Part shown: piece by piece, positions 5,401-63,267 of the stretch | How positions within the stretch are numbered: the stretch's first letter is position 1 | Layout: each line of letters opens with the position of its first letter | From: Branchiostoma floridae | Lineage: Eukaryota; Chordata; Leptocardii; Amphioxiformes; Branchiostomatidae | Assembly (NCBI RefSeq): GCF_000003815.2 | Contig: NC_049987.1 | Location: 8,171,858-8,235,857, forward strand | DNA: 64,000 nucleotides | Direction of reading: 5' to 3' | Program-made: the position numbers and the translations under genes | Notes under the pieces: generated by a model | The model's database searches: none | What the model was told of the DNA's origin: nothing | The model's input: only the letters and a program-made list of their open reading frames with translations

Positions 5401-8400
5401 TGTGCTACAAATGTTCAAGCACTCAACTATCGTTTAGTATTTTCACAAGTATAAAGATACGTTGCAACTGACACGTGTTTTCAAGTGCGTATGAGGACCG
5501 TATGGAAGAAGTCTTAGCCTCTACCAGGCTCGACAGGACGTTGGAAAAATAGTAGAAATTGGACAAATATGGACAAACTAACTCCTCTGGCATGTTATGT
5601 ATCTATGTCTGTCCAATGTCCACTGTTTTCCTACTAACCCGTGGAGCCTGGTAGAGGCCAAGAGCTCCATACGGACCTCAAACGGACTTGAATATGTACA
5701 CGCACGTGTGAACCCAGTTTTAGTTTAGAACCCAGCTAGTATGGATTGTTGTTTCTCATAGTAAACGGAGCCCTGTTGCGCCTGAAGCCGACGTTTGAGT
5801 GGCGCAATGACGTGTCTCTCACTACGGACATCACGTCCGTCCACTCCGCCTTCAGCGTCATCAGCGTGCAGATCCGCGCCTACGCCAACTCCTTCCTGGA
5901 CCAGTCACAAGGTCAGATTAAGACTTTCATTTAGACTAGGGCTTAGAATGTTGGGAAGGGTACTTTTATTTGGACAAGACGAGGTCCTGGGTGTTACTCT
6001 GTATCTCACAACGCTTCATGCACCATGGCACATATACCCTGTGAGTCCGTTTCGTCATGAAAGTATGAGTTTACAGTTTTTCTGACTAATAAGTAGATAT
6101 GGTCAAAAAAAGGAAACTTTTAAAGAATAGATGCTCAGCATCTCTGATATCCACGCAAGAAGGCAGTGAGGGTAATTTGTGCTTTAAAAACAATTTTTTG
6201 TGCGATAATGGCTTATCAGTGAAAATGCATGCGAGGTGTGATGGGGGGGGGGGTGCTTAAAGTTTTTGCTTTGCTATTCTGATGTGAGCTATTGCTCATG
6301 TATCAGCGATGGTGCCAGCGTATGATTGACTCGTTGTTCATCACAATCACAGTATTTTGTTTCTACTTTTCTTCCTCTTATTGTTTTACAGGAAAGGGTT
6401 GCAGCTACCAAACATCAGACTGTGAGTACGCCCAGGACGTGTGTGATTTTGAGGACAAGGGGAACAGCCAGTGTGAGCGGTACGAGGGGTCCTGTAAGAA
6501 CACGGTCCAACAGTGCGCACTCGTCTCCTCCAAGTGTAAGGCATCTTCTGTAGATTTGTTATATGTGAGAAAATGATAGTAAAACGTACTGAAAGTGAAG
6601 AACCTACCATGTGAATGACCGTGATACTAGTATCAGGTTGTAGTATCATGGGCTCGTAGATTGAGATCAAATTTGAAAACATGCATTAACGTATTAGGAG
6701 TGTTTTACACAAAAATAATGATTTTAAGTCACGTTGTATAGGATAGAAGTCTCTGGAACAGTAAGCTTTACTGTATAACCATTATGTGTAATATATTTAT
6801 GATCCAGACAGAGTTACAGTAAAAATTTAGACGTTTCAGAAGACGCCCGACATCCTTTCTTTTTATATCATTGAAAAAGACGGCTTCTGTAGGGTCTGTA
6901 ATTTCACAGTGAACATGTCCAGTCTAAAGATTGGATCATAAGAATATCATTCTTTCCTGGATGCCTGACTTTTATACACGTATTAGTGAAAGCCGTTGCA
7001 TCATCACTATTGCATTACTGTGTAAGATAGAGGCCCGTGTTTTGTAACATAATTTATATATGTGGTGTTATATGATGATAGATTTACCAGGACTCGAAGT
7101 AATAAATCTGTATCTGTGTTAGATTTTATCCGTCCCTTACCTACTTCATGACCTCAATGAAAAGTGGCCTGCAGGCTTCTCATGATTAGATAAAGTTTCA
7201 AACAAATGCTATACCTCCGTCCAGCGAGTCCCAACACCTACACCACCATAGAGATGACCCTGAAGATGTCCCGGCTGCGGAACTACCACCTGATGGAGAT
7301 CTACATCCCCAGCATCACCATCGTCTGCCTGTCCTGGGTCGCCTTCTGGATCAACCGCGCAGCCGTGCCTGCCCGTGTAGCGCTGGGCATCACCACCGTG
7401 CTCACCATGGTCACACAGAGCACACGTGTGGTCGGCATGCCACAGGTAGGCTCTACCACACTACATGTACATAGAAGCCACAGGTAGGCTCTACCACACT
7501 ACATGTACATCTATAGATGCTGTGGGCATCACCACCGTGCTCACCATGGTCACACAGAGCACACGTGTGGTCGGCATGCCACAGGTAGGCTCTACCACAC
7601 TACATGTACATAGAAGCCACAGGTAGGCTCTACCACACTACATGTACATCTATAGATGCTGTGGGCATCACCACCGTGCTCACCATGGTTACACAGAGCA
7701 CACGTGTGGTCGGCATGCCGCAGGTAGATTTCCCTTTAAACGCTGCTGATTGTACTGTTGTTGTAGATTCAATGAGGTTAGAAAGGTTAACCAAGGGGAA
7801 GGATAAGCCTTAGACATTTTCACATATATCATTTAAGTGTAGCTGGACATTGGGTCCTTTTGAAAAGTCATACAACATACACCAAGTCCCGAAAATGAAA
7901 TGACTTTTAACGGAAGAACACCCTGTTATACTTAACTCAGTGTCATAGCTAGTTATACCTACTTCCTACTTCAATACTTTAACTACCATCTCCTTTCTTT
8001 TTTTCCTGTGTGTGTGTGTTAGGTGTCGTATGTTCGCGCCATTGACGTGTGGGCCCTGTCGTGCCAGACCTTCGTGTTCCTGGCCCTGGTGGAGTACGCT
8101 CTCGTCAACTACCTGGGCGGAAAGGAGAAACCAAAGGTAACACACTCGTACTGAACGCTAGAGTCTGCCCTGAATAGGACAGGCTCTAGCGTGCAAAGGG
8201 TGGAGGGTGTTCTTAGGCTGAAAGAGGCGGTAAGCAGGTCTGAATGGTGTGTTGAAACCCATTGGATTGAAGATTTAATGGGAGAATGAACCTCTAATTG
8301 CACAACGGTGCTTAATCAAGGACCCTGAATTTAGCCTGGCAACAGTCTCTAAGTTAAACGTATTTTTTGTGACGTACAGCAGAAAGAATTCATTTTGTAA

Positions 8401-17300: not shown

Positions 17301-20300
17301 ATGAAACGGAGTTATAACCATTGTATGCGTTAACGTCGCTTTACCGATACTAACGTTATACCATGATATGATCTCACTTGATTTCTAGTCAAAACATTAC
17401 CATATACATGTACATAGACAACAAAGCGTTCATGAACGTCCATTCTAGGAATAGACTATTGATACGTATATGTATATAAGTGTAACGAAATTTCTTGCCC
17501 GTGGGCTAATTACAAGTGACAAAAAAGACTGGCAAACAATGGTAAACATCATAGTAAGCGACTAATATAGTCTAAAAGCTAACCCTAAAATGTATACAAA
17601 TATAAATAAGAAATACAAATGCCGTCGTTGTTTTTTTTCCAGAGGCGCCCACAGAAGCGCCTGCCACGCCTGCCCTGAACACGTGGTGCCCGGAGGAGGA
17701 GAGTGTGCTGTTCACCTGGCCGAGAACCTTCATCGACACTACGGCACGGGTGGCGTGTCCGGAGGGCGGCGGGACGGCCATCAGGCAATGGTGGGTTCGG
17801 CTAACTAACTAGCTAACCAGCTAAGTAACTGACTAACTGACTCACTGACCGGCTAGCTAGCTAAGTAATCAAATAGATAAATAGCTAGTGGGATAAGTAC
17901 TCATCCGTAAATATTTAAATAACTAATCACATGACAAAGTGGCTGACTCACCACTAACTGACTGACTAACTGATTGACTGACGAGCTAGCTAACTTAGTA
18001 ATCAGCTAAATAGCTAACTAGTCAGCTAACTAAGTATGCAACTAACTAATTATTGAATAACTAATCACATGACAAACTGGCTGACTCACCACTTACTGAC
18101 TGACTAACTCAGCGCTAGTCATTAGGGAAGTACGCATTATACGTTTTGTACAAATTTCTTATAGCATCACGGGGTTAATTTGGGAAGGATTATTGAGGCA
18201 AGCTTCTAATAATGAAAAAGTAGTCAGAGTGTTGTAGCAGCATTCACCATAACTGCTGAAAATTATTGTTTCAATGCATGTTTCTACAGTGCCTGGGGGT
18301 CTCCAGACGAAGGGGCCTCCTGGAGCGTGCCGAACGTCACGGCGTGTTTCTCCGACAGGGTGACACAGCGTCTGAGTGAGCTGGCGTACCTGCCGCCTGA
18401 CAGAGGTACAGCGGGTTACTTTTAAAATAGAGAGAAGGAACCTGTTTGCAAGTGATCATTCCACCTTATAGTTAAGCTAGTCTGTCATATCAACGAATCT
18501 GCCAATTTGTAATTTATATAAGACAGAGAATGAATGTCACTTTATTGTGGAGTGCACCAACTAAAGTAATGTCCTTTTTCATTGTATACAAGATATGTCC
18601 CCTAATTCTCCTATTTGAACGGCAAAGAGAAATCCATATTCCTCATGCAATTATATAAATCATATATTATGGCTACTAGTATTATGTATTAGTCTCTGTA
18701 GATATAGTAAGGTTTTCTTATATCAACAGTTATGTCTTATTGCTGTGACCTTTAGTTAGTCTGTTAGAGCAGGACAGTATAATCAAGGTATTTCATTTAT
18801 TGTCGATAATAGACTTCATAAGCAGTATACAAAAGTGAGTGAAGAATATCTGTTGGCCACTTTGTAAAGAGTGCAACTTCACTTTCATGTCCATCTACAT
18901 TTGTTATAGCTTTCTAATCCACAAAAATGTACTTTATCACCTCTGTATGACAGTGCTGGACAATATAGACGAGTTACAGACCTGGACATCTTGGGCTGAG
19001 CAGTTCACACTGATCGACACCGCCCTGGCTGCTAAGACCTTGGCGACCCTCTCCGCCACCCCGACCCTGGACACGCAGCAGTGCTCCACAACACTGCGGT
19101 GTATCAGTAACCTCATGCAGGCTGACGAACAACAGCTGATGGAGGCTCAGCGGATGTACAACTCTGTATCAAAGTATGTATGGAACTGTATCGAAGTATA
19201 GTATAGCTCCGTATCATAGGATAACTGCGTATGTTTGAACAACTGCGTATCAATGTATGAATAACTCCGTATCAATGTATGGATAACTCCATATCAATGT
19301 ATGTATATCTCCGTATCAAGGTATGGATGAGTTAGTATCAAAAGAAGAGAATTCCAGATCAATGTATGAAATGTTCCGTTTCAATGTATTTAAAAGTCCG
19401 CACCGATTCTTGAATGGCTCTTTTTGAATGTATGTATAATTCCGTATCAATGTTTGGATAACTTCATATCAATATATGCGTAATTCATACCAAATTACTT
19501 ATAGCTTCGTATCAATGTGTGTATGATTATATATATTGTACGTTTCTTCAAGATGGCAAGTTTTGTTTGAGATGGATGAAAACAGAATTTTGTATCATTG
19601 TTGATAAATGATTGATTTCTGTATCATTTCATAGGCTCATGAGCGTAATAGAGCCAGTGACATTCAACACAGTGTTTGACGGCGACACTTTCGTGACAAC
19701 TGCCGGGGACATCGCTATAGGTCTGGGAGCGTTTCAAACAGTACAGTTTCCCGGTGCCGCATTCGTCCAACAGTCAACGGACGGCAGGCGGTCTTACCAG
19801 TCGGATCAGGTAGGCAGAAAGTCGTTATTGTAAAACATTAATTCTTGTATTTCTTGATCATTGGTTTGATGGAAAATTTTATGAAAGAAGTCTATTTTTT
19901 GGTCATCAGTACTAGTATTAGAGCAATCCGAGCCACATTCAATTTATGCTATTTCTCATGAAGGACAGCCGATATTTCATATTCAACTTTGTTCTTTCTG
20001 CAGGAGTTTGAAATATTCTTGAACGCTAATGTGTCCGATGGAGATTTACTAGGGTTCAGTTCGATAAAACTCCCCACGACGCTACTGGACAGGGTGATAC
20101 TATCAGAACATCCAACCGTGCAGTTCACTTTCTACAGGAGTGGCAAAATGTTCGACGTAAGTTTACGTACTTTCATGCGTCAAATTTCTACTATTTGGTG
20201 ACGCCTCAGGGGCGGAGCCGTTAGTGTAGTCTACTGCGATTGAGTTGAATGATTCTAAAAATCAGCGAATGCATTCCCTTGGGAATTGTTTTAGGTAATA

Positions 20301-23300
20301 CCTTACAGGAATGACCTTTGTACACAGCATGAACGGTCTCTACTACTTCTAGCATACAGACGCGTTATTTTCTACCATCTAATACATTGGTTCAAAACGT
20401 TTAAGTATATGCCTCGTCTTCAACGGCGCCGTCCATTTCCATATTCTGTGCGTCTTAAAGATGATGACGTCGGGATTTCGTGCATACCAAACTACTGGTT
20501 TAATGAAGATGTATCGTTTTTCAACATGGATTGTTTTGATATCGTACAGCTCGTGAGCCAAGCTGACGGGAACTCCTCCTTCAGTATGATGAAACTCCAG
20601 GTGCCCATCATCTCTGCCACGGTGGGAGGGATGCACGTGTCGAACCTGTACGATCCTGTACAGGTCAACTTCCGCAGGCTTATAACAACGGTTAGTACTG
20701 TAGTTATATCATGTTGGACTTTAAAATTCTTGCTGCATGTATCTTATGTAACATTCTGTATTTTGACTAAACCAATTTCAATGAATAGCAATCTCATTGG
20801 GGTAGATTATAGTTTATGTGCATAGACAAATTTCAAACTTCCCCTCCTCGATTCATTACGACAACATTCGATCATTGGCGTATTTGTCTTGTACAAGTAC
20901 ACCAGTTCATCATACATTATTTTCCACTTTCTCTTATAGGGCACTCCAGTATGTGTGTTTTGGGACACATCAATAAACGGTAAGTACAAAGTCTACTAGT
21001 CTTATTTCTATCAAATCATGATACCAAAGTGTCTAGAAGTAAACATAATGTAAGAAAGACCATAAGCCTTTAGACCCACCAGATGCAGCTGGAATGGAAT
21101 GGTAGGATGTAGATGACGTTAAAACCTAGCTTAGGACAACTTCGTTCACTTCCCCCTGATACTGGACATGGGTGGTATATCTATTTCAAAAGATGATGTT
21201 TACAAGGTACATCTGTAAATTACAGCGTACCTAATTTGCTCTACTAATATCATATATAATTCTTGCCATCCTCAGACTGGTCAAGAGAGGGGTGTCAACT
21301 GGCTAGCGACCAGAATGACATCATTACCTGCGAGTGCAACCATCTTACAAACTTTGCCGTTCTCATGGTAGGTTTCACATTTTCGTATATCTCGCTAACT
21401 GCCAAGATAATCATCACAGTAGTATAAGACATGGGTCTAGTTCATATTTTAGGCCGTCAGCCATGGCGTAATCAGTATTTTTATCTCCAAACAGATAGAC
21501 CCTGCCATCTACCTCCACCGAGGCCCCGTTGTAATCTACTGTAGTCAGCATGACTCACATGGACCACACTTTCCTTGACCTTCCACAACACCAGCGCCAT
21601 GGAGTGCTTTTCCCTAGCCTTTGATCACGTATAATCTCTGCTTTGTTGACATGTCACCGACCACTCCAGTCATTTCAAAGGCGCCAATCGTTACAAGTGT
21701 TAGACAGCAAGATGCTTTCGGGTTCAGGTCGCGATAGGACACATTTTTCTTCCCGTGTAGGAAGGTACACATATCAGCCATTAGCTGTAAATTGAGCCAC
21801 CTTTTAGGTCGGTGTCGTCACGAAACGGTTGAGATAACGCATTGGGTAGAATTTGCATGACGATCCACAAACTTTCAACCTTCGAGAACGCTTTGTACAG
21901 TTTTTACCGTAAGTATTTCATGTTTACCGAGCGTCAATGAGCGGAAGAAGCTGCTCTTTTGTCTCCTCATGCCTGAGCTATGTGGTAGAAACGACGAGTT
22001 GGTGTGGAAGGAGGCCATCATAGAGGGTTCACGATGAGTTACGACTCGCACTTTCCTTGTAAAAAAGACCCCAAATAATGGAAGGAGCCAGTCGTAAGAA
22101 TCCCCGGTCACATTTCTCCCCGACTGAAACCTCTGCTGGGAGAATGTAAGCACTGCTCTGTCACAGATATAAGAATTTCATAAAAAGCATAAAAAGGGAC
22201 CAATTGGAGTAAGGTTGTCAACATGTCATCAGATTTAATCCAGTTTAGCTTCAAGGACACGCTACGTCGGACTAATTGACAAACATTCCGATATAACAAC
22301 AGTGTTCCACTCCACATGTTACTGTTTTTTAAACGCGTACACAGTATCACTGCGAAGGACGAGAACCATTTAAACGTCAAATTGTGTGTTATGTTTTTTA
22401 AAGCAGTATTAAAAGATAAATGATATACCTACATACAAAACATGCATCAACAAATAAATGTACAGCACATACATTCGCTTGTTTAGCGGAATATTGCAAA
22501 TGGTTCACATATATTGATTCAACAGACCAAATTATGAACAGTAAAAGCGAGCGCTTGCCAAACATGCATGCTTGCTGTCCCTCTGGCTTCCTTTCTCACT
22601 ATAGTCTCTAAGAATCTTATCTGAAAGCCGAGGTTGTAACGACCTACTAGTACTTTTTAAACGCTACTGTCATCGTGACATCTACATCATCGTTAGTTCA
22701 ATCATCACTGTTGTCCTCCTCCTCACCCTCTCCATCGACAACGTCTTCATCACTTGTGCCGTCGTCACTGCTGTCAGCTTCACTGTCCTCGTGGTCTTTA
22801 ATGTTCAGTTCTGCTACTTCTTCCAAGTCATCATCCACACTGAGGATGTCGGAAGTGCCGTTTGGAACTATCTTATCCGCTTTGTCTATCTCGTCCACTT
22901 TTATGACTTTTCCGTCCCTTATCTTTCTGATCGCAAGGCTGATGCCAGCGGCCGATGGACGCACAGCAGGGTCGTATTGGAGCATGTTTAGGATGAGAGC
23001 TTTCGTGGAACTGACTGGTGGTAAAGTAGTCACCAGACCCTCCTCCAGGTCTTGCAGTGTTGTGGATTTTAAGGCATCAGCAAGCCTTCCTCTGGACCCG
23101 ACGCACGCGACGAGAAACTTTCCTTCGGAGTTGTAGGAGGATCGATCGGTGACCGCAGCAAAGATCACGCCCAACGAGAATATGTCGCTACCTTTTGTGG
23201 ACTGTCCGTCGTCTACTTCCGGCGCCATGAAGTGACCGGAGCCAGGTTGGTCCGTGGTGCTCATGCCCGAGCTCCATTTGAGATCGCCGAGGACTTTAGC

Positions 23301-26300
23301 AATACCGTAGTCACTGATCCTTGGTACGGGGCTCCGCCGCGTGCCGGAGAGAAGTATGTTCATCGGTTTCAGGTTCTTGTGTTGAAGATCAGCGACGTCA
23401 TGGAGATGGGCGAGCCCGTCGGCAATGCCGATCATGAGACTGGTGCTTAGGCTTCTGTCGTAAGAAGCGTGTAACACCAGGTCGTTCAGATTTCCTACCG
23501 GACAGTACTCCATGACTGCCCACAGCTTCTCTTGCGAGGAGAAGGAGTGGAAGAAGCGGACCAGGTTGTCATGTTCTAAGGGTAGCATGCCCAGAAGTTT
23601 CCGCAGCTCACCAGCGGCTTTAGACGCCCGTTTCTGCAGGCGCTTCTTTTCCTGGTCGCTGACATAAACCTTCAGCTTCAGCTTGGCAGAGGTTTCAGCA
23701 TCGCTTTGCATCAGGTCGATCGACTTTAGAACATATGTCTGTCCGCCTTTAATCGCCTTATAGACGACACCACAGGCTCCTGTCCCTAGCGTGTCCTCAA
23801 AACTGTACCCCTTCACGCAGCTTTGTGCCGAGTCTGCCATGTCAACCGGCCGAGCAAACTCCACCCAGACAAAGTAACACGAACACACAGGTTTGGCCAA
23901 GACTACAGTGGCCCTCGGGAAAGCCTGTGCTTTGTGAAGTGCTTTGTGTTGTGTTCTTTTATCATCAGCAACATAGCAACCATGCCATTGTTTGCACACC
24001 ACGCGTAATAAAAGGACAAGTCAACTATAAATCAGTTTGAAAAGTGACTTGTAGCAAAAATATTTTTCTTCACCCACACCTATTTCGCGCCATTACTGAG
24101 CAGAACACGCAGAATAGAAATGCCCATAGTCTTTGTTTTCACATGACAAAGCTTAAGGCAAACCGCTGCATCACGACATTTTCTTCTTTGATACCCAAGA
24201 ACTACAGCACCTTTGGAAAAATCCGAGAGAAAGGCAGAGCAATTATTTACCTCTACAAAATGGGTAGTTTTACGATTGATAGCATCTTCAAACCTCACAT
24301 AAATAGGTGGCATGTTAATGTGTTTTTGTACGATTTGCCCGATTGCCGCCTTGAAAATGAGAGTGACCGTATTCATTTGTGGGTTACCTCGCAAGTCTCA
24401 CAATGTTTTACAGCTCTATAACAATCTTTCAAAAATTATTTTACAGGATATATATGGCAACATAGACAACATCTCAGACGCAGATCTGACAGCCTTAATG
24501 ATCATCTCTTACGTGGGATGTGCCATCTCCATGTTAGGGATAGCTGCGACTCTTCTCACCTACTCTCTCTTCAGGTAACCGTACGACCAGTGTCACATTG
24601 AAGCTACTCATAATGTATAGAATATGCTGTCATTGTACTTTCCCACCCTAACAGCAAATATTGTGATTGTACTAAGTGTTTAACGAGCACAATGTAATTT
24701 TGACAACATTGTATGGAAGCTGCAAATTAGTTACAAAATGATTATGGAATTGCAAGATTACATAATTATCCTACATCACAAAGTTCACAATTATATTCAT
24801 GTTTGTAGGAAGCTCCGGAGAGACAACCCCACCAAGATCCTGATGAACCTGTGCCTCGCGCTCCTCCTGGCCATTCTGTTCTTTGTCTGCTCCGGGCCTG
24901 CGCACAACAGCGGCAGCCGAGGCGCCTGCGTGACCGTGGCCGTGTTTCTGCACTACTTCCTGCTGACGTCCATGGCCTGGATGGGGCTGGAGGCGCTCAA
25001 CCTGTACCTGGCCATCATGAAGGTCTTCAACACCTACTACAGGCACTTCATGCTCAAGTTCTGTATCGCCGGATGGGGTGAGTAGAGTACGGACTCTTGT
25101 TTACAGGGCAGACGTAACCAAAGTATCGTTGAAAATTAAAATCTTCGTGTTGTTGCATCATTCAAATAATAATATTGATACCCTATTAAGGGCGTGTTGA
25201 TTTGATTACAAGGAGGACATCCGCCCAACATAGCCCTTTCCAAACTTTTCAACATGCCGTAAATCGTACAAAGCAGTTGTAAAATGTGGCCTGGTGGATC
25301 CCTTGTGCCTTGAATGCTTTATGTCCTAAAGGATTCTTTTCCTTCCCTACAGGTAGCCCAGCTGTTATTGTCGCCATCACTTTAGCTGTTAACGTAGAGA
25401 ACTACACCCAATATGGAGGGATGTGAGTATTACAAATTATAATCAAAATGTTTTACAAGTCTAAAGGTTGTACAGTGACAAGAATACAACAGACGAATTT
25501 TTTTATTGCCAATCGGGTAGCTATCTACTGAGTAGCTAATGTGGCTAGCCATAGGAAGACGTATTTAGACACACTATATGTTATTCATTGTCACGCAAAT
25601 ATGTCCTACCATGCCTATAGCTAGTGGTATTGGCTATTCACTGGGTACCAATTGGGTTGCTATCTACTGTTGAAATTAGACTATCATTGAAGCTGATTGT
25701 CATGTACAGATATAAAATACTTATACATTATAATGTTGAATGTCCCACAGTTGCTGGCTGCAGCCTAACGCGTTCTATGGAGCGTTCCTGACGCCCGTGT
25801 GCCTGGTGCTCATCCTGAACTGTGTCATGTTCGGTCTGGTCATCAGGCAGCTCGTGGGAGGGGCTGCCAACGAGTTCAAGAAGGCTGACAAAGTGGAGAC
25901 AACCACGAAGCTGAGGTAGGATGGTTGTGACTTGCCACGTGCTATGGAATGAACGAGAAGGGCTGGAAGTGTAGACTTATCAATCTCCAAGCGGATTTAT
26001 GGGTGGTACAATTAAGACAGTATTAAGACATTTGACATCCAACTGAAATTTTGGTACTGCCTTATGCCACCGGTAAATTTGCTTGGAGATTATGGATTCG
26101 TGACGTGGAATTGACATGGTAGGATAGGTTTGATATTTTTCACTGACAAAGTGTGCTAGAACCTAGTGGGAAATGTAACATATTTAACAATGAATCCCCT
26201 ACATTGGTACGGGGATCACTAAAAGACTGTTAAAATCTGGCATCAGAATGACACAGATCCAGATCGACGAATGACAATGTTTTCCTCCCAAAAGGGGCGC

Positions 26301-32200: not shown

Positions 32201-33504
32201 GTTAACAACTGTTGTTGTTGTGATGAGCAAGTTTTCTGGTAAGCTCACAATACAGTCTCCTTCCTGAAAGTAAAAGCAACTTTGTGGTAACTTTTGAAGT
32301 AACATGATTTTAACAAACATTATTCAAGCCAGAGCTAGAATTAGAACAACAGTCAGATGGGACTTTTGACATGAGAATTACCTTTAGATTTCTGGTTGAC
32401 ATGACCCCTCTCCCTGTATCTGAAATGTACACATGACAAAGTGGAAACAATGCAAACAATTTAAGAAAACAACAGCAAGTTAAAAGATAGCCGGTGGCTA
32501 TCAAACTTACAGACATGTCATTTATGATTGAAAACTTAAATGCAGGACATATTGATTATATGGTATCATTTTTTATGCATTACCCTTAGGAGGAACATTA
32601 CTCTTCACTGTTATTTAGCTGCTGCATTCTTTGCATGGCTTAGTTTTATCCATCTTCAGCAGGTAAACAATATATACAATGTCTAAGGTGTTACCAGGGA
32701 AGTCCGTCAGAACAAGGTGGCTATCCCTAAAGCCATTCCTCCTCAGCCATCTCATCAGCTGGATGCTGTCATCTCGGGACATCAGTGAGGCTGTCACAGG
32801 GAAAACAGCATCAGAGTTGTGGATTATCATCACCTGGTTACTATGTTCGTTATTTAGTATGTCATTAGTTTAAATATGAAATGTTATGTGCTCAATTTCA
32901 TTCTGTTCAGAACCTAGTATTAAAGTTGGTAAGACACCATGTATCTCGTGTATCATGCTGTTTCTTCTCAACAAACTCACACCTACCTACAGGTATGACT
33001 GCATTTTAGCATAGCTTAACCTCACTGTGTCCCAATTTCAAATGAACATTTTGTCCTTAAAGCTCTCTGGAAAACTTGTATAACTTACCCTTCCTTCTTA
33101 ATTCAGTTTTGGGCAGTTAAGTTTCAACCAAGCTCCCTTTTTTAACATAATTGGTGTCAGATGTAGGACAGGCTACCCTGGGAAACCAGCTCGAGAAGCT
33201 TCGCAAATAAGAGTTACCGATCCCCTGCCTAACGCGCGCCCTCCCGCCTCTATGCACCCGCCCCACTACCAGCGGCGGGTGTCCCGTGTGGGCGTGTTGT
33301 AGGGATCGGTAAACTTTGCGTGCCTCGTTAGGAGTCTGCGTTTTCCCAGGGTAAGGACAGGCCTGCAGGAGTTAAAAATTAAACTCCTTGGATGTACTAA
33401 AAATATATGATAATAGATTCCGGTACCATACCATGTCGAACACCCTCTTCTTTCTGCTTGGACTTCCTTCGTCTGTCGCGCCATGACCTTCCTCTCTTTG
33501 TCAT
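29282..33504 (-). CDS. SETD4: SET domain-containing protein 4 (lysine methyltransferase)
   Basis: SETD4 family members are split-SET methyltransferases of nucleus/cytosol. Nine coding exons on the minus strand, in transcript order: 33504-33432, 32790-32695, 32419-32382, 32263-32175, 31626-31197, 30887-30713, 30324-30225, 29703-29583 and 29419-29282. All phases match, giving 419 residues (human protein about 440). Recognised: basic N-terminus, LMRWLRRNGF, GRGVMSTRNLKEGDCIVSLP (start of SET), a long iSET insert, WAWATVYTRSVY, LAPFLDMLNHSP (cofactor-binding NHS motif, about 229-239), and FINYDPYDNGRLLMEYGF with the probable catalytic tyrosine Y272. In the human protein the matching stretch is YGPHDN; here the glycine after Tyr is Asp. 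The C-terminal exons form the alpha-helical Rubisco-LSMT-like substrate domain. It shares a 562-bp upstream region with divergently transcribed COX6A. Confidence 0.93.
30457..30568. repeat. Hairpin-forming inverted repeat in a SETD4 intron
   Basis: Outer arms ccacttttgtgggcgtg and cacacccacaatagtgg, and inner arms ctgtcaacaatcagag and ctctgattggctgacag, are imperfect reverse complements. Probably a small MITE. Confidence 0.7.
33166..33363. mobile_element. MITE-like inverted repeat in SETD4 intron 1
   Basis: Left arm blocks ggacaggctaccctggga and agttaccgatcccc are mirrored on the right by agggatcggtaaac and tcccagggtaaggacagg. The centre is GC-rich (cgcgcgccctcccgcc). About 200 bp with no frame. 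Confidence 0.75.
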
Positions 33505-34066
33505 CTCATCATTTGATAAACGGGCCTTGTTGAACTGCAAGTTGTGTGTAGGATACAGAATAGGATAAGGCACGTACAGGCCAGGCAAATATAAAGAAAT
33601 AGGCAAAATTACTTTTGACTGGAAAGTAAACCATTGAGATATCCGTAAGCAACCGTGCATTAGGCAATTAGAGCATACAATAACGCTATAGCCAACACTA
33701 GACCACGAATATAGACATAATGCTGGCCTTGTATCTATAGCCTTGTATCCAACGTCACCAGCTAGCCTTGAAATGTCCCAGGAAAAGGGGAGGGGCGTTA
33801 AGAGTAACACCGTACTCACGCCTTTAATGGATTGACAGACTCAACACAAGCGAGACAATGCATAAACTGTGATAGACAGTCACAGTAGCACCTACCTGAA
33901 TAATGAAGGATCATACAAAGACCAAGGACTCCCAGGAAAAGCAGTATTTGTTGTTGTTGTTGTTGTTGATGATTTGTGAGATTTCCGAATTTCTTTCACC
34001 TGGGCGCAGCCATCTTGGATGGCCACGTGACTTCCCATCATTCCATGCGTACAAAAAAAGGACAAA
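33505..34066. promoter_or_regulatory. Bidirectional promoter region SETD4 / COX6A
   Basis: The 562 bp between two divergent initiator ATGs hold a YY1-like site (GCCATCTTGG at 34009-34018) and an E-box (CCACGTGA at 34023-34030) shortly before COX6A, plus a TTG repeat (33947-33968). YY1 and USF-type sites are common at nuclear-encoded respiratory genes. No TATA box was seen. Confidence 0.6.
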
Positions 34067-35662
34067 ATGGCTACGCTGCTGAAGGTTCTCCGGGCTTCTG
34101 CCCGCTCTCGCCTGCAGTTTACCCCCGCCAGGCCCGCTTCAGGGGCTGCACCTGCTGGTGGAGAACACTCAGGTACTTGTGCGTCTTTTACAGGGTGGTT
34201 GGAGCTGTATACTGCGCTGTAGGTGTTTTTACAGGGACGAAAACTTTGACCTTGTTACGTTACGTTTCGCGTGCCGCCATCTTGTGTGGCATAAAGAAAG
34301 AAGTGGCCTACGTGACTAGTACTGACTACCGCTTCTTTTATAGCAAAGTTACGACTTCGCAAAACGCAAGGGAAGGGCAGCGCAGAAATGTACCATGTAA
34401 TAAAATTAGGGTATTTCAATGTGCCCCTATCTCCTGAAATTATCTTCACTTTCTGCCTAGTTGAGCTGAAACTTGAACCTATACAACTTGTTATAGGTTC
34501 AAGTATCATAGATACAATTTGTATCTTAGAAATAGCTCTTGTTTTTGAGCTTAGTCTTACTTCATGCCAAGAAACGTTCGAAAGAACTTTACCACATGAC
34601 ACAGTCACAATGATCTTATGAAAATACAGAATATTGTGATACATCATTTGTAGTAATCTGGTATCATACCAGATTACTACAATGATGTATCACAATATAC
34701 TATCATACTATGTTGACCACCCTTTGCTTTGATTTCCTCCATCAATGACGCCATTACTGTCCTCTCTGTCACTTTGTCATCTCTTTATTTTGACACTTGG
34801 GCATTGTTGAACTACACTTTATGGAGAGTACACAAGACACAAAAGCACTTGCATTGCAATTGGAATGTTATCAAGTACACCAAAGTCAACATTGTGTATG
34901 ACATGTACTTTAGGTGGCATGGACCTGTGGAAGAAGATGTCTGTGTTCATTGCCCTGCCTGCTCTGACCATCTGTATGCTGAACGCCTACCTGAAGGAAA
35001 AGGAACATCACGAACATCCCCGGCCAGAGTTCCAGGCATACGCCCACCTGCGAATCAGAAGCAAGGTAACAAAACATGGCATTGGCAGGCCACCGTTAAG
35101 TTACCACAAACTGATTCCTTTCATCTCTTCATTTTAGATAGCGCTGTGGCAATCTATAACTTATAAGTCTGACAAAACTTTTTTTCACAGAATATCAGCA
35201 GATGTATTTATAGTTGATAAGCTAGTTTTCTGCATTTCACCTTGTGCTGACTTTGTAAGTTGTAGTTGAATAATATAGTTGTCACTGCTAGTACAAGTTT
35301 GGTGCCTGACAATATTTCATTCTTTTTAAAGGTGGTAAGTATGCTAAAAGATGGGAGCATTTCTGGTGGAGACAAAAATGTGTTTGGAACTTCCTTAGCC
35401 CTTGATGGGTTAGACTGACAAAACCTCTTTTAGAAACAAAATAATATCTTCTTATTGATAACAAATAACACACTTATAGGTTCTTTATCTATAATTCGGA
35501 TGTACATAATGACAATTAACGTACAGTTTATGTATAGTATATTGTGTTGTGTTGTTTTGTTTTGTTCCCCAGCCGTTTCCGTGGGGCGACGGTGTGAAAT
35601 CACTGTTCCACAACCCTCACAACAATGCTCTGCCGGACGTTGGCTATGAGGACAAGCACTGA
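34067..35662 (+). CDS. COX6A: Cytochrome c oxidase subunit 6A, mitochondrial (isoform with first terminal exon)
   Basis: A small single-pass subunit of respiratory complex IV in the inner mitochondrial membrane. Coding exons 34067-34172, 34914-35065 and 35573-35662 join in frame to 115 residues. The first exon is an Arg/Ser/Ala-rich presequence ([18 protein letters not shown]), as expected for mitochondrial import. Exon 2 has the [22 protein letters not shown] membrane helix, then [13 protein letters not shown] and YAHLRIRSK. The terminal exon gives [18 protein letters not shown] and ends GYEDKH, the hallmark C-terminus of COX6A. A second terminal exon of the same length follows at 36620-36709. 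It is transcribed away from SETD4 from a shared promoter region. Confidence 0.95.
34471..34504. repeat. Perfect inverted repeat, 13-bp arms
   Basis: acttgaacctata (34471-34483) and tataggttcaagt (34492-34504) are exact reverse complements with an 8-base loop, in COX6A intron 1. Confidence 0.9.
34631..34698. repeat. 68-bp near-perfect palindrome in COX6A intron 1
   Basis: The left arm from atattgtgatacatcat to the centre ggtatcatacc is mirrored on the right, with a single extra T in the left arm and no real loop. It would form a long hairpin; possibly the whole of a tiny MITE. Confidence 0.9.
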
Positions 35663-36619
35663 GTATCTGCTGTCAGTTAACCCTTTGTATGGGAAGCTGC
35701 ACATGTGGTTCTCTTTGCGGAATTCCTTATGCTTCTGGCACTAGACTTGCATAGTGCCACAAGGCTCTAGCCATTGTGATTGTTTTCTTCCCATACCTGC
35801 AGTGGTTTTTGTTGGTGTTGGGAGAGCCTGTTCATTCAATGGCTAGAGCCTTCAATGGCACTGCTTCGGAATCTTGATGCTTTACATAACAAGCTTATGC
35901 GTCATAATTTTTGATACTGGTATTATTGGCGGTATACATATCAATTTGCAGTGGGCAGCTTCACAGCTGTTTGTATTTAGCATGGTGGCTGTTGAGTGTA
36001 TTTGACGTGGCTACAAGTTTTACGGCATCTGCCTATTGTAGACGCATGGATTTGTCTTCAATCTACCTGTCAGCAATGATGTGCACTTCAGCCTTTTCTT
36101 TCAGTGAAGTTTCACAATTGTACATTGCTTGTTGAATAGAGTGTGATGATGATTGGTAATAGCTAATAGGAACAATTTACAATGGATATTGTACGTTTGA
36201 TCAAATGGTGTATCCAGTTTAAGGCAAAGGTTTAAAATGTATAGGGCCAGTGCGTTTATAAGTGTAATTTTTTAAGAATAGAGATGCTCCATGGTCTAGC
36301 TTAATTTTTGGATGGGTACTAAATGTGAACTATTGAGAAGATACTGTATGCTACCATATACTTAAGAATTTACTGCTGATGATCCACATTCTGCAGCTCA
36401 GTGTGACTTTTGAAACAGCTCAAAATTTACTCAAGTACAGAAAAGAAGAAACATGCTAGTGTTGATTTTTCTGGCCAATTTTGCCCACAGTAGTTCAGAC
36501 AGATACCTGCAGAAATCTGGGAAGGGCCCCTGAAATTTTGGATGTATGAGTGTGTATGTTTAATCCAGTGCACTTAAATTTCAGTTTTGTGTTTTACAAG
36601 TTTGTTCTTGATTTTGCAG
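35663..36619 (+). other. COX6A 3' UTR of isoform 1 / intron of isoform 2
   Basis: No further coding exon. A run near 35720-35870 contains partly repeated ggctctagcca/ggctagagcc blocks (inverted, about 35762 and 35841). No canonical AATAAA was noticed for the upstream terminal exon. Confidence 0.5.
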
Positions 36620-36709
36620 GGGTTCCCGTGGGGTGATGGTCAGAAGTCTGCCTTCCACAACCCACATATCAACGCTCTCCCTGATGGCTATGAAGATGCA
36701 GAGGAATAG
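36620..36709 (+). CDS. COX6A: Alternative terminal exon of COX6A
   Basis: An acceptor (ttttgcag) at 36612-36619 opens a phase-0 exon of 90 nt, the same length and phase as the exon at 35573-35662. It encodes [20 protein letters not shown] and ends GYEDAEE, stop. It could replace the first terminal exon after SK of exon 2, giving a 115-residue isoform with an acidic instead of a His/Lys end. It has its own AATAAA at 36914-36919. It is intact, so it is probably used rather than decayed, but splicing into it must be shown. Confidence 0.85.
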
Positions 36710-36913
36710 AGAAGGCAGAATCAGATATCAACTAAGCAGAATATACAACTCCATGTCTCAAATCTCAAAATCATCCAGAAGCCATTTATGTATGAGTAGG
36801 AAAACTACTGTGTGCTCAGAGAGCCTCAGAATGATGTAGACTGCACTTGTCAGTTTTCTGTATGCTGCCTTTCAGTGAGATGTTTTCTTTGAGACCCATG
36901 TGTGCTGATGTAA

Positions 36914-36919
36914 AATAAA
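36914..36919 (+). terminator. Polyadenylation signal for the downstream COX6A terminal exon
   Basis: AATAAA about 205 bases after the stop of the second terminal exon. Confidence 0.75.
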
Positions 36920-37257
36920 GTTTCAACCCCCCAAGGTGGATTTCAAGTTCTTTCATTGAGCTCACATAGTAGGAAAGGAGGTTTAACCATTATGCATATG
37001 CCCTAACTTAAGTTATGGCATATTCACCTCATTTATCATAAAAGGAGGTGAATGATAATTAATGCAAAAACAGTTTGGCAGACTGATTTTAAATTAATGA
37101 ACGTCGTTTATTTGAAAGGAAAACTAGTACAAGTGGATCTGAGGCACCATCGTTACACTCCAAATCATATTCTGGGAGTACTACTATCACCACTACATGT
37201 ACATTTGTAGGTGCCTTCTTTTGGAACAAATAACATCAGTAAGGTTTTTGAATGCTT

Positions 37258-40054
37258 TCAGTAGATGTATATGTTGTCTGCGATCCACTCTGGTAGATGT
37301 GTCATGACAAAAGTTTTAACATGCCAGTAGAACTGCATGGGTTTATACCGCACTTTGGGGCTGACAGCAACCACAGCTGCCACCATGGCGTCCACCACAG
37401 GTGAGGTGTCCCGGCTGCCCTCGGTGGCGTACTGGTGCATCAGGAGTTTGTAGTCATCCAGGGCTTTCTTACCATAGGCTTCCTTCACTTCATCTGTCAT
37501 GCCGTCCCAAAGTTCCTGTACAAAAATGTGTTAGTCTTAAATGATATTTACTGTGCCATTAATACTTTTTGTGCAAGATGGGGGAAAGCGCAATCACGAA
37601 AATCATTATAAATGCGACTGAACGCTAACGTTACTACTAATTGGCAGTTCCCCATTTCCTGTGCATTATCAGATTAAGCTCGAAACGTTTTGTGTAAATA
37701 GTTCTTAAGAAATTATGTCAGTCAATGAGTAATACATGCATGTGTTGAAATACGTGTAACAAAATCTTTTCACACCAATTAGTTAATAGAATTTTCATCG
37801 AACTGACCTCTTTTTAAAGGTAAGCACACGTACCTTCAAATTTACGATGGCTATCAGTCCATCTTGTTCACGGAGTGACCTAGTTCTCGCGAGACTTGCT
37901 AAAACCAGGTCTTTATTCAGTTCAGAACTAGGTCGGACTTGAGTGGATGTTCCGCCCGTCCAATTTGAAGGTGCGTGTGTTTCCCTTTAAAAACTAGTCA
38001 CTATTAGATGAAAGTTCTATTAACAGTGCACATACATGTCACTAATGAATCTATTCAACGATTTTCACACCAACTTGAACCTTTAGGAAGATAAAGTAAC
38101 CTTAGCAGTCCTCTCTATGCCCTGCTTGTTGAAGATGTTGGTGGCGCTGATGAAGTTTCCTGGCTCGATGATGCTGACGTCCACGCCCCACCGTTTCATC
38201 TCGTACCTCAGGACGTCCGAGAAGCTCTCCACCCCGTACTTAGTGATGCCGTACGCCGAGCGGGACGGGGCACAGCTGCGACCCAGCCCACTGGCAATGT
38301 TAATCACTCGTCCTGTTAAGACACAACACACAGAGACAATTTACTAGTAATCATTTGTGCTTTCTTGTATCCGTGTGACTGTCTTAAGTTTGTGTGCATG
38401 TCTGTATTATGATTAAATGAGGATTCCGGCTAGGCCACCTTATCTTATAGTGTTGTTGCGGCCCAGCCCAATGGCAACATTGATCCTGAACATTCTACAA
38501 AACATTGATCCATAGATTTGCCTACGTGTCATCACCCTGAGTTGCAACATGGATTTTGCTTAGGACTATGTACCAAATCATACTAGAAAGTGCATGTAGT
38601 ACCTTTCGCTTTCCGTACAAGTGGCAGGAAGACTTTGGTGACCCTGACCGTGCCCCACAGGTTGACCTCCGCCACCCGTTTGTAGGTCTCTATGGGACAC
38701 CACTCCACCAGACCATAGGTGGACGTGCCCGCATTGTTCACAATGGCCCACAAGCCTACATATGAAACACCAAAAGCAGCACAACGGTTCAATTCACATA
38801 GGTTCAATTCAATAGTTAGCATCTGTCCTTCTAAAAAAAAAAGACGTGATGTACAGAGCTTTACAAGCATCCCTGAACAGAGACGAAGGGCGCCATAGAC
38901 TTCCTTTAACTTATGATCCACTGCTCACCGAGTCACGTGTCCTATCCGCATAATATGACGTCACAACAGCGATGGATTTGTTCATTCCTTGACAAAGACT
39001 AGAGCTGTTTTGCCGAAAATTTGTCCATTATCTTTTGTGTTGGAAATTACAGTTCAACTTGTTCCAGAAGACATGATGTAGTTTTTATTTTATTTTGTAG
39101 GTACATTTGTCTTTCGTTCGCAACAATATGTAAGAACTGACCTGCGTCCTTGTCTGGTAAGTTCTCTTCCATGTACTGCCGAGCCTTCCACAGACTGTCG
39201 TCACTGGTGACGTCCATCTGTAGTACATGGAGACGGGGAGACCCTACAGCAGCCAGCTCACGGGCACCTTCTCCACCCTTGTCCTACGGGCAGAGGAAAT
39301 CAAAGTTGGCTTGTAATGCTTCACAGTGTACACTATTAGTACATTTTCACCAATCTTGAATTGTTACAAGTGTCACCGAGGTATATTTACTCTATGGCAC
39401 AGCAGCCCTTTGATTCTCGATACATATTGCTGCCATTTGCAGCGTAGACATATACATCTTTACTCTCTGTAATCATGTAGCAAATGATTTACGGGCACCT
39501 TACGCATATTATCGCTGTCACATTTGTCTAACTTTGCTTTCTAAACAAACTGTAAGGCGACACAATCATATTAAGTAAACATTAATAAGTCCCAAATAAT
39601 GACTGCTATGACTACAGGTAGACAACACAGTTCCGTACCGCATGCAGCTTGACACCAGTAGACTTTGAACACTAAGTGTTTTTATTTCAAATCGAAGTAG
39701 CTGCACTGAGATCTAGATCAAAGAGAGAACACGAAGTGCTTATCATCTACAATCTGGCCTGCAGGCACACTAACATACCTTGAGAACACACCCTGCGAAC
39801 ACCGTGAAGCCCCTGTCGTGCAGGACCCGGGACACCTCCTTCCCGAACCCGGTGTCGCACCCCGTCACCAGCACCGCCTTGCCCTTCCCGTCCACCTCCG
39901 TGACGGGCAGGAACCTGCAGACCGTCCAGGCCAGCACGGACGCCAGGAGCACGGAGAACGCCTTGGCCCACAGCCCCGCACCCGTGGTGGGCTGGAGACA
40001 CGCCATCAGCATCGCGGCGTACACCACCACACGTATGAGGAGTTGGGAGGCCAT
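37258..40054 (-). CDS. BDH1: D-beta-hydroxybutyrate dehydrogenase-like short-chain dehydrogenase
   Basis: BDH1-type enzymes interconvert 3-hydroxybutyrate and acetoacetate with NAD at the inner mitochondrial membrane in ketone-body metabolism. Five minus-strand exons, in transcript order: 40054-39779, 39283-39142, 38755-38603, 38312-38101 and 37515-37258, make 346 residues (human BDH1 343). The N-terminus is hydrophobic/basic, suitable for mitochondrial targeting or anchoring. Rossmann motif T64-G-C-D-T-G-F-G71, NNAG at 146-149, [14 protein letters not shown], catalytic S198, Y211 and K215 (YGITK), EPGNF, and the family-specific C-terminus with [17 protein letters not shown] and THLPEWI are all present. 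The donor of exon 4 (gttact) is weak but the phase join is exact. Related retinol or steroid dehydrogenases are less likely given these C-terminal motifs. Confidence 0.9.
38868..39060. mobile_element. Dispersed inverted-repeat element, copy 2
   Basis: It lies in BDH1 intron 2. Shares gctcaccgagtcacgtgt, ttccttgacaaag-cta and gccgaaaatttg with copy 1 (8738-9060), and agggcgccatagactt plus aacttatgatccactgctca with copy 3 (52870-53060, opposite orientation). Confidence 0.8.
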
Positions 40055-56457: not shown

Positions 56458-57190
56458 GGCCCATTACGTGCGCTTCTTCAGTTTTAGCGGTGTCCGCACG
56501 TAGCCGTGGCCGGGCATTCACGGCTATATTTTCTCGCCCCGGATGAAGACAATCCAGCCCCATTACGTGCGTTTCTTCAATTTTAGCCGTGTCTGCACGG
56601 AGTTCTGGCCGGGGTAAACGGCTAATATGGCATATTTCCGCCCCGCCAGGCTTGGCACTCAATGCGGACCCATTTTATACGCGTGCGTGTCTTAAATTTT
56701 AGCGGTGTCTGTGCATGGAGCCAGACCGGGCAACACGGCTATTTTCCCGCCCCGCCAGATCTAGACTCGGCTCTCAAACCAGGCCCATTACGTGCTCTTT
56801 TAGCAGTGTCTGCACGGAGCCAGGCGGGCAACATGGCTACAGTATATTTCCCCACCCCGCCAGACTCTCAAACTAAGCCCATTACGTGCTCTTCTTCAAG
56901 TTTAGCGGTGTCTGCACGGAGCCGGGGCCGGGCAACACGGCTATATTTTCCCCGACTCGGCACTCAATCCAAACCCATTACGTGCGTTTCTTCAATTTTA
57001 GCGGTGTCTGCACGGAGCCGGGGCCGGGCAACATGGCTATATTTTCCTGTCCCGCCAAACTTGGCTCTCAAACCAGGCCCATTACGTGCGTTACTTCAAT
57101 TCTAGCGGTGCCTGCACGGAGCCGTGGCCGGCCTGGGGCAACGCGGCTTCATTTTCCCTCTCTGAGTGAAGACTCGGCACTCAATCCCGG
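56458..57190 (+). repeat. Satellite C, ~95-115-bp GC-rich minisatellite
   Basis: Seven units starting cccattacgtgcg (about 56459, 56559, 56669, 56786, 56879, 56975, 57078), followed by a tagcggtgtctgcacggagc block and tggctatattttcc. Units 5 and 6 are the most alike. Apparent long frames here arise only from the repeat. Confidence 0.92.
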
Positions 57191-59070
57191 CGGAGGTGAA
57201 AGTTGACTTGAAACGGACTATACCCAAGCCCCTGTTAGAGCCTGTATGGCTACATGGCGTATTTGACCAAGGAGATTAAAATCCTTGATTCAAGTGAACC
57301 AGTATCCAAGCCATGGCGGAGAAGGCACGCTGGTAAATATTATCATTACGACGTGAAGTTATAGACAAAGATCGTCACCATTTTGCATGTGTTCTTGTAG
57401 AATTATCTTGTTTTAAACGGCTTGTAAGGACTACCGGACTCGTGGTGCCCAGTGTGTTTTACTTCTGTAAACAAAGGTGATGTAAATAATGAATTTTATT
57501 ACAAATAGCTCTGATATTAATTTTGTGATTTTTACAACTCCTTAATAACTACAGCCGCGTATATCATATGGTTCACTCCACACATTTCGATCTCAGACAA
57601 AACCGCCGCCTTTTCTGTTGACTGTCAGTGTGCTGTCACAGTTTTACCCGAGTTTACCTGAATTGTTCCGTCAGACTTGTACGTATCGTACATCAGTACT
57701 AGTATTTACTATAGGGTAATCTCGATATTATAAATCCTTTGAATTGAGACGCACATGTGTGCTAAAGTGTAGACATTAAGTGTGAAATTGTACATATCTT
57801 ACAGTACTGATTTACCGTCGTAAAGCTGTTATTATAGTCCAAGAATCAAACTGAATATGCCCAACCGACATTTATGACTTATCGTTTAGTACAGAGATGT
57901 CTTGTTTACAATCGGTAATACTGGAGTATTTCGTGACGCTTCTTCTCGGTGTACGTATGGCTTGCTTGGTGTGCTCACGAGATATCATGATTTTCTTCGT
58001 CAATGTTCAGTGACAAGCTGCCTATTTGCTTACAAAACTACACATTATCTTTCCACAACACGCGATGTCGTTTCTCCCCAGACACCATGACGCCACCGCC
58101 TTGTCAAAATTGAATTGATGATCTCTCTTTGTCACGAGCCCGAGGCATGATCAAAGGCTGCCGCGGGCTGCGCGGGAAAACTTGAAAGTAGCGAACTTGT
58201 TCAACTAGGAATTCGCACGCTTACGGTACACGAAATCAAAATATGTGAGGCTTATTACATCTGATCTCACTCAACAATCGCAGACGAATTCAGCGCTAAA
58301 GACACATGTTACAAGCTAATTCTTACTGGATATAATGTTTTTGGTCCGGCGATTGAAATGGGCTACGAAGTTAGGGAAGTGTGGTTTGATCGGACGGCTA
58401 AATTCCGCTGACTAATTATTCTTCCCCAAAACAGTTATTTCAACCAAGGACGTTATATCAGCTGATGTCCTTGTTTCAACCTTCATGAACAACCCTACCG
58501 TTTTTTGAGATGTTGGCAAATACCTTGGAGATGGATAATGAATTTCTGTTCGTGTTCTTTTTAATACACAGGTATATCCAAGCTCCTTCAGTGGTTTGAA
58601 GTGTCGAAGCAGGAGGTTAATTTCTTATAGCCTCTTTGGTCGAAGGAAGAACACAGCAGTACAAGGCGTTGGTCTGAAGTGTGTGTGTGCGTATGTGTCG
58701 TTCTTTGTTTATCATAACTCTACGTTCGTTTATCCTTACCTTCTAGTTTCGACTAACACGCGTCTAGTATATACAATACCAGTTAATACAACACAGTAAC
58801 AATATTGTATAGACATTTATAGTATGTAACATAAATGTCAGGTGATTGTTATGTTTATCTGTAAATAAATATTGTGAAGACTAAAAAAAGGTCTAGAAAC
58901 GATGACAGACAGAATTTAATTGCTCAATGATACTTTGATAGGAAATTAACAGCAAGGAGGTTATGATTACTGCTACTCAAGCCTGACATATGCTACGAAA
59001 TTTACAAACAAGACGGCAATCAATCAGGACTCGTCGATATGGAAGGTTTTGCCCAAATATTTCGTTCGTC

Positions 59071-63167: not shown

Positions 63168-63267
63168 NNNNNNNNNNNNNNNNNNNNNNNNNNNNNNNNN
63201 NNNNNNNNNNNNNNNNNNNNNNNNNNNNNNNNNNNNNNNNNNNNNNNNNNNNNNNNNNNNNNNNNNN
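63168..63267. other. Assembly gap (100 N)
   Basis: Exactly 100 N, the usual placeholder for a gap of unknown length. Confidence 0.99.

Follow-up and report, generated by a model that had tools for sequence, protein, structure and literature searches.

The window analysed here, a stretch of 64,000 nt of the Branchiostoma floridae genome (NC_049987.1), contains a single COX6A gene on its + strand. The coding sequence is complete and comprises three exons, the last of which is present in two neighbouring versions that we refer to as 3a and 3b. The features of the gene are as follows:

34067..34172, + strand: exon 1, coding part (start codon and presequence), 106 nt; donor CAG/GTACTT, phase 1, donor score 5.6
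34914..35065, + strand: exon 2 (transmembrane segment to LRIRSK), 152 nt; donor AAG/GTAACA, ending in phase 0
35573..35662, + strand: terminal coding exon 3a, 90 nt including the stop, 29 residues; acceptor TTGTTTTGTTCCCCAG
35663..36619, + strand: stretch of 957 nt from 3a to 3b, serving as 3' UTR when 3a is used and/or as intron when 3b is used
36620..36709, + strand: terminal coding exon 3b, 90 nt including the stop, 29 residues; acceptor GTTCTTGATTTTGCAG
36914..36919, + strand: AATAAA poly(A) signal, the sole AATAAA between exon 2 and 37100

Exon 2 ends at 35065, directly before a GT, and 86 whole codons lie ahead of exon 3, such that the junctions to 3a and to 3b are both in phase 0. When exons 1 and 2 are joined to either version, the frame remains open for 115 residues up to the stop. 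Both translated products match the Pfam COX6A profile (PF02046, cut-off 25), with 66.6 bits for the 3a product and 66.9 bits for the 3b product. They also match 9i6f_G, a 109-residue COX6A1 chain in the Protein Data Bank that we take to be the human precursor, at 110.4 bits (3a product, query residues 12-114) and 112.9 bits (3b product, residues 12-112), and the similarity to this solved chain extends through the C-terminal segment for both endings.

Several features surround the coding exons. Two exact GCCATCTTG sites flank exon 1, one at 34009-34017, some 50 nt upstream of the start codon and with CACGTGAC following after six bases, and the other at 34276-34284 within intron 1. Together with two more at 19549 and 32191, they bring the count in the window to four against 0.5 expected, a number reached in none of 100 shuffles. 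We take GCCATCTTG to be a YY1-type motif, and its arrangement here presumably resembles that in promoters of nuclear respiratory-chain genes. Also within intron 1 are two near-perfect palindromes, with 88% and 93% self-complementarity, which may be what remains of small inverted-repeat elements, as well as a 69% direct repeat of 33424-33539; the features concerned lie at 34467-34508, 34628-34701 and 34701-34816. Downstream and on the - strand, a short-chain dehydrogenase gene (37261-39283) is seemingly convergent with COX6A, and one of the three frames tested in it (38086-38340) matches PF00106 with 44 bits. Elsewhere in the window, a 440-codon open frame on the - strand (22701-24020) scores 113 bits against the protein kinase domain profile, PF00069, and a 96-nt tandem repeat of 3.3 copies at 56798-57131 is overlapped by + strand open frames at 56626-57102 and 56877-57203. 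At 7384-7727, a 139-nt unit is repeated 2.5 times at 99% and overlaps the last part of a reading frame whose product resembles the M1-M2 region of a Cys-loop receptor channel; this reflects either a very recent duplication of part of an exon or an effect of assembly. A run of 100 N at 63168-63267 marks an assembly gap.

The relationship between 3a and 3b is evident at both the nucleotide and the protein level. A 68-nt direct repeat with 74% identity consists of the acceptor CAG and the first 65 nt of each exon. When the first 22 residues were used in a six-frame scan of the 64 kb, each exon scored the other at 105, as compared with 29 (query 3a) and 22 (query 3b) for the best unrelated place. 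The pair are, as the preliminary description of this locus had it, two exons of 90 nt and equal phase (0) whose translations are homologous but different C-termini. Their equal length arises partly from compensation, with 3a carrying one additional codon (V) before GYED and 3b one additional residue in its tail. All differences between the two predicted isoforms are confined to the last 29 residues, and amount to four substitutions (P/G, V/Q, L/A and N/I, 3a/3b), the one-residue insertion and the tail. Hand alignment to vertebrate COX6A1 places the endings about equally close, with 20 matches for 3a and 18 for 3b; at two of the four substituted positions the former still has the P and the L of vertebrates, but it carries the insertion, which is missing from the latter. 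Neighbouring homologous exons of equal phase within one gene constitute a tandem exon duplication. A blastn comparison of the sequences flanking 3a and 3b found no direct similarity of note outside the exons with their acceptors, which argues that the duplication is old.

The boundary of the duplicated unit can be compared with that of the human gene. One review tabulates a disease-associated 5-bp deletion of human COX6A1 and places it in intron 2 (PMC5448071), and its position is given as c.247-10_247-6 in a table of a second article (PMC7700678); these two entries together place the start of human exon 3 at c.247. In 9i6f_G, the tail PFPWGDG starts at residue 83, the P being encoded by codon 83 and hence by c.247 onwards, and both 3a and 3b begin at this same residue and in this same phase. 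By this shared boundary, the unit duplicated in the lancelet was one old, complete ancestral exon, which could be swapped in frame. The disease-table entry itself (PMC5448071) further indicates that splicing into the last exon matters.

We also searched the window for additional copies of the upstream exons. No second copy of exon 2 was found in the 64 kb at E values up to 1, and exon 1 gave, besides its own locus, only four chance-level matches (E 0.17-0.87). Exon 3b begins 1.55 kb past exon 2 on the same strand, and nothing resembling exon 1 or exon 2 lies in between. A second complete COX6A copy carrying 3b, the outcome against which the preliminary description had advised checking, is therefore rejected for the 64-kb window. 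Assigning 3b to a second COX6A gene, with first exons that lie elsewhere or were lost, would have a precedent in the mammalian COX tissue isoforms, which arose as separate genes according to the relevant passage of the review (PMC5448071), but given the single exon 1 and exon 2 in the 64 kb and the position of 3b behind them, we consider this extremely improbable.

Codon-level comparison of the two exons was carried out over 26 aligned codons, leaving out the additional V codon in 3a, the KH and AEE tails and both stop codons. Of the 78 aligned bases 21 differ, yet only 4 of the 26 residues do. The differences fall 3, 4 and 14 times at the first, second and third codon positions, respectively, and the third-position excess is significant (binomial p 0.002). 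The dN value between 3a and 3b is 0.12, while dS is saturated, with no value obtainable from NG86 and a maximum-likelihood estimate of 4.8; differences occur at five of nine four-fold and eight of twelve two-fold sites. We also simulated the neutral drift of one copy; two starting sequences were used, with 4,000 runs for each. The freely drifting copy accumulated a median of 12 residue changes and acquired stops in about 41% of runs, and none of the 8,000 runs combined four or fewer residue changes with the absence of a stop. These data support the view that both exon copies have been kept under constraint at the protein level, as summed over their whole history and not as a measure of selection today.

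The same data bear on two further explanations of the pair. In one, either 3a or 3b is a dead relic and the other alone is used. The simulations reject long free drift for one copy, and frame, stop and acceptor are intact in both exons; a loss could nevertheless be recent, and on balance we regard a relic as improbable. In the other, two alleles of a single exon were placed end to end during assembly, as could happen in a highly polymorphic genome; haplotype mis-joins are a known risk for polymorphic genomes. Alleles would, however, be alike throughout, while here the synonymous sites are saturated and the flanks beyond exon and acceptor are dissimilar in both the blastn and the repeat comparisons. 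On these two grounds we reject an allelic mis-join, which is barely conceivable as the source of the pair.

Both exons are preceded by strong acceptors. Scores were obtained with an approximate donor and acceptor matrix, which gives the exon 2 acceptor (TTTAG) a poor score of 2.0, rank 831 among the 3,782 AGs of the + strand. On this scale, the acceptor of 3a, TTGTTTTGTTCCCCAG, has the highest score of any AG evaluated between 35103 and 36699 and ranks 12/3782 on the + strand of the window, and that of 3b, GTTCTTGATTTTGCAG, is the second best in the same interval and ranks 31/3782. By the same matrix, the best donor-like site within 35640-36609 reaches 4.7, below the 5.6 and 6.6 of the gene's two real donors, and lies about 590 nt past the 3a stop. 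Being both weaker than the real donors and distant from the stop, this site makes 3a look like an exon followed by poly(A) addition, not like one that is spliced onward. The opposite arrangement, in which 3a is an internal, stop-carrying exon spliced on to 3b and 3b is simply 3' UTR in some mRNAs, reportedly has a counterpart in the layout of KRAS 4A/4B, and the strong acceptor that 3b possesses would suit it. However, a junction some 590 nt beyond the stop should expose the mRNA to decay, and a role as UTR would not explain the protein-level constraint on 3b. Together with the weak donor, these points make an internal 3a highly unlikely.

Neither AATAAA nor ATTAAA occurs in the 957 nt between 3a and 3b (35663-36619), and ATTAAA is absent altogether from exon 2 to 37100; a further AATAAA lies at 34399, inside intron 1. 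The absence of both hexamers over 957 nt is unremarkable in itself, since 48.5% of 2,000 Markov sequences of the same length contain one. Alternative terminal exons usually each carry a poly(A) site of their own, and the locus had been described beforehand as having alternative last exons of one gene. The part of this claim that stands is that one COX6A gene, with exons 1 and 2 present once in the window, has two usable terminal coding exons. In its strict form, with a separate poly(A) site for each exon, it is only one of the options. Under such a layout, which is a sub-case of exclusive exon use, 3a would be polyadenylated at a variant signal, for example the AATAGA at 36277, and the competition between early polyadenylation and distal splicing would set the isoform. 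Weaker variants that could serve are available between the exons (AATAGA at 36135 and 36277, ACTAAA at 36318 and AAGAAA at 36446), while the missing AATAAA and ATTAAA, though not significant as such, count against it; we give separate poly(A) sites somewhat less than an even chance. The only AATAAA after exon 2, at 36914, sits behind 3b, and a poly(A) site shared by both forms thus appears slightly more likely than a weak site belonging to 3a.

We also looked for RNA structures and motifs by which a choice between the exons might be made. A long, stable hairpin on the + strand at 35749..35864 lies between 3a and 3b, and the 238 nt of 35663-35900 fold with a z-score of -4.38, none of 200 shuffles folding as well. 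The hairpin is perhaps a relic inverted repeat, and no second copy of it was detected within the window at E values up to 0.01. Docking was assessed among intron 2, 3a, the sequence separating the two exons, and 3b together with its UTR. Six pairs of regions were each compared with 60 shuffles, and no pairing of the kind that would direct exon choice emerged; 31 to 60 of the 60 shuffles paired at least as well as the native regions, in a test that is crude, as the program threads very long duplexes. RBFOX sites (TGCATG) are absent from the four stretches covering 35066 to 36935, and no Rfam family reached its gathering score anywhere in the window.

Taken as a whole, the exon pair is real and probably functional. 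We propose that the last coding exon of COX6A was duplicated in tandem long ago and that both copies were retained as mutually exclusive endings. The exon 2 donor at 35065 would be joined either to the nearer acceptor, at 35573, and so produce the 3a subunit, or to the farther one, at 36620, and produce the 3b subunit. In the slightly favoured layout, both mRNAs would end at a shared poly(A) site (signal at 36914), such that two 3' splice sites compete and 3b lies within the 3' UTR of the 3a mRNA. As no exon junction would follow the 3a stop, the 3a mRNA should carry no classical trigger for decay. Sequence and gene layout make us consider exclusive use of both exons, under either poly(A) arrangement, likely. 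The two predicted subunits share the presequence and the membrane helix and should therefore occupy the same slot in complex IV, where they may tune contacts. The C-terminal end of COX6A presumably faces the intermembrane space.

Exclusive swaps between tandem exons are already known as a kind. In a survey of human tandem duplicated exon substitution events, 77 of 236 events swap C-termini (PMC9741552). Its C-terminal class, for which the C-terminal exons of tropomyosin are the worked case, resembles the COX6A pair in that neighbouring homologous exons yield products alike except for a homologous C-terminal region, one exon being chosen. The COX6A pair, seen here in genomic sequence, differs in gene and lineage and in the possibility of a single shared poly(A) site. 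Other systems share individual features. Exons 4a and 4b of OGDH, as described in PMC7969005, likewise alter a mitochondrial energy-metabolism protein by exon choice, but in another enzyme with another function and not in terminal exons, and coq-2, according to the corresponding account (PMC7434440), is a further such protein with a different enzymatic role. Among the Drosophila examples covered in PMC9013439, pip has tandem homologous terminal exons that are chosen exclusively, but is presented there as a UTR case, while the 3' variable regions of PGRP-LC are also chosen exclusively, with competing RNA structures being reported; our crude docking test saw no such pairing at COX6A. In the openly licensed PMC literature, the matches listed, judged by title and start of abstract, include no report of alternative terminal exons in COX6A and none on lancelet COX6A, and none of the 20 listed of 408 matches to one query combines Branchiostoma with COX6A. 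As far as the matches listed go, COX6A would therefore be new as a gene with an exclusive tandem-exon swap.

A further comparison is that with mammalian COX6A1 and COX6A2, the liver or ubiquitous and the heart or muscle forms, which likewise provide two versions of this complex IV subunit and of which COX6A1 has the same exon 3 boundary. The review assigns each of the mammalian liver and heart COX isoforms, COX6A1 and COX6A2 included, a gene of its own and states that they do not arise when one gene is alternatively spliced (PMC5448071), which bears out for mammals what had been assumed of vertebrates at large, whereas in the lancelet gene the last 29 residues alone change. Subunit VIa is said in the same source to join COX monomers and stabilise the dimer (PMC5448071), and the C-terminal swap may accordingly tune contacts of the dimer or of supercomplexes. 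From the sequence, we would put forward only tentatively that the lancelet possesses a regulated COX6A isoform pair, made from a single gene through splicing and with an origin independent of the vertebrate COX6A1/COX6A2 genes, in which the C-terminal segment alone is rewritten and adjusts dimer or supercomplex contacts of complex IV by tissue or stage; this is possible, but falls short of being probable. If both exons are used, a single-gene exon swap in a non-vertebrate chordate would represent a second route to variants of complex IV. If the proposal is true, one 29-residue segment of COX6A would be singled out as the part worth varying, and the gene would offer a clean test of the role of that segment.
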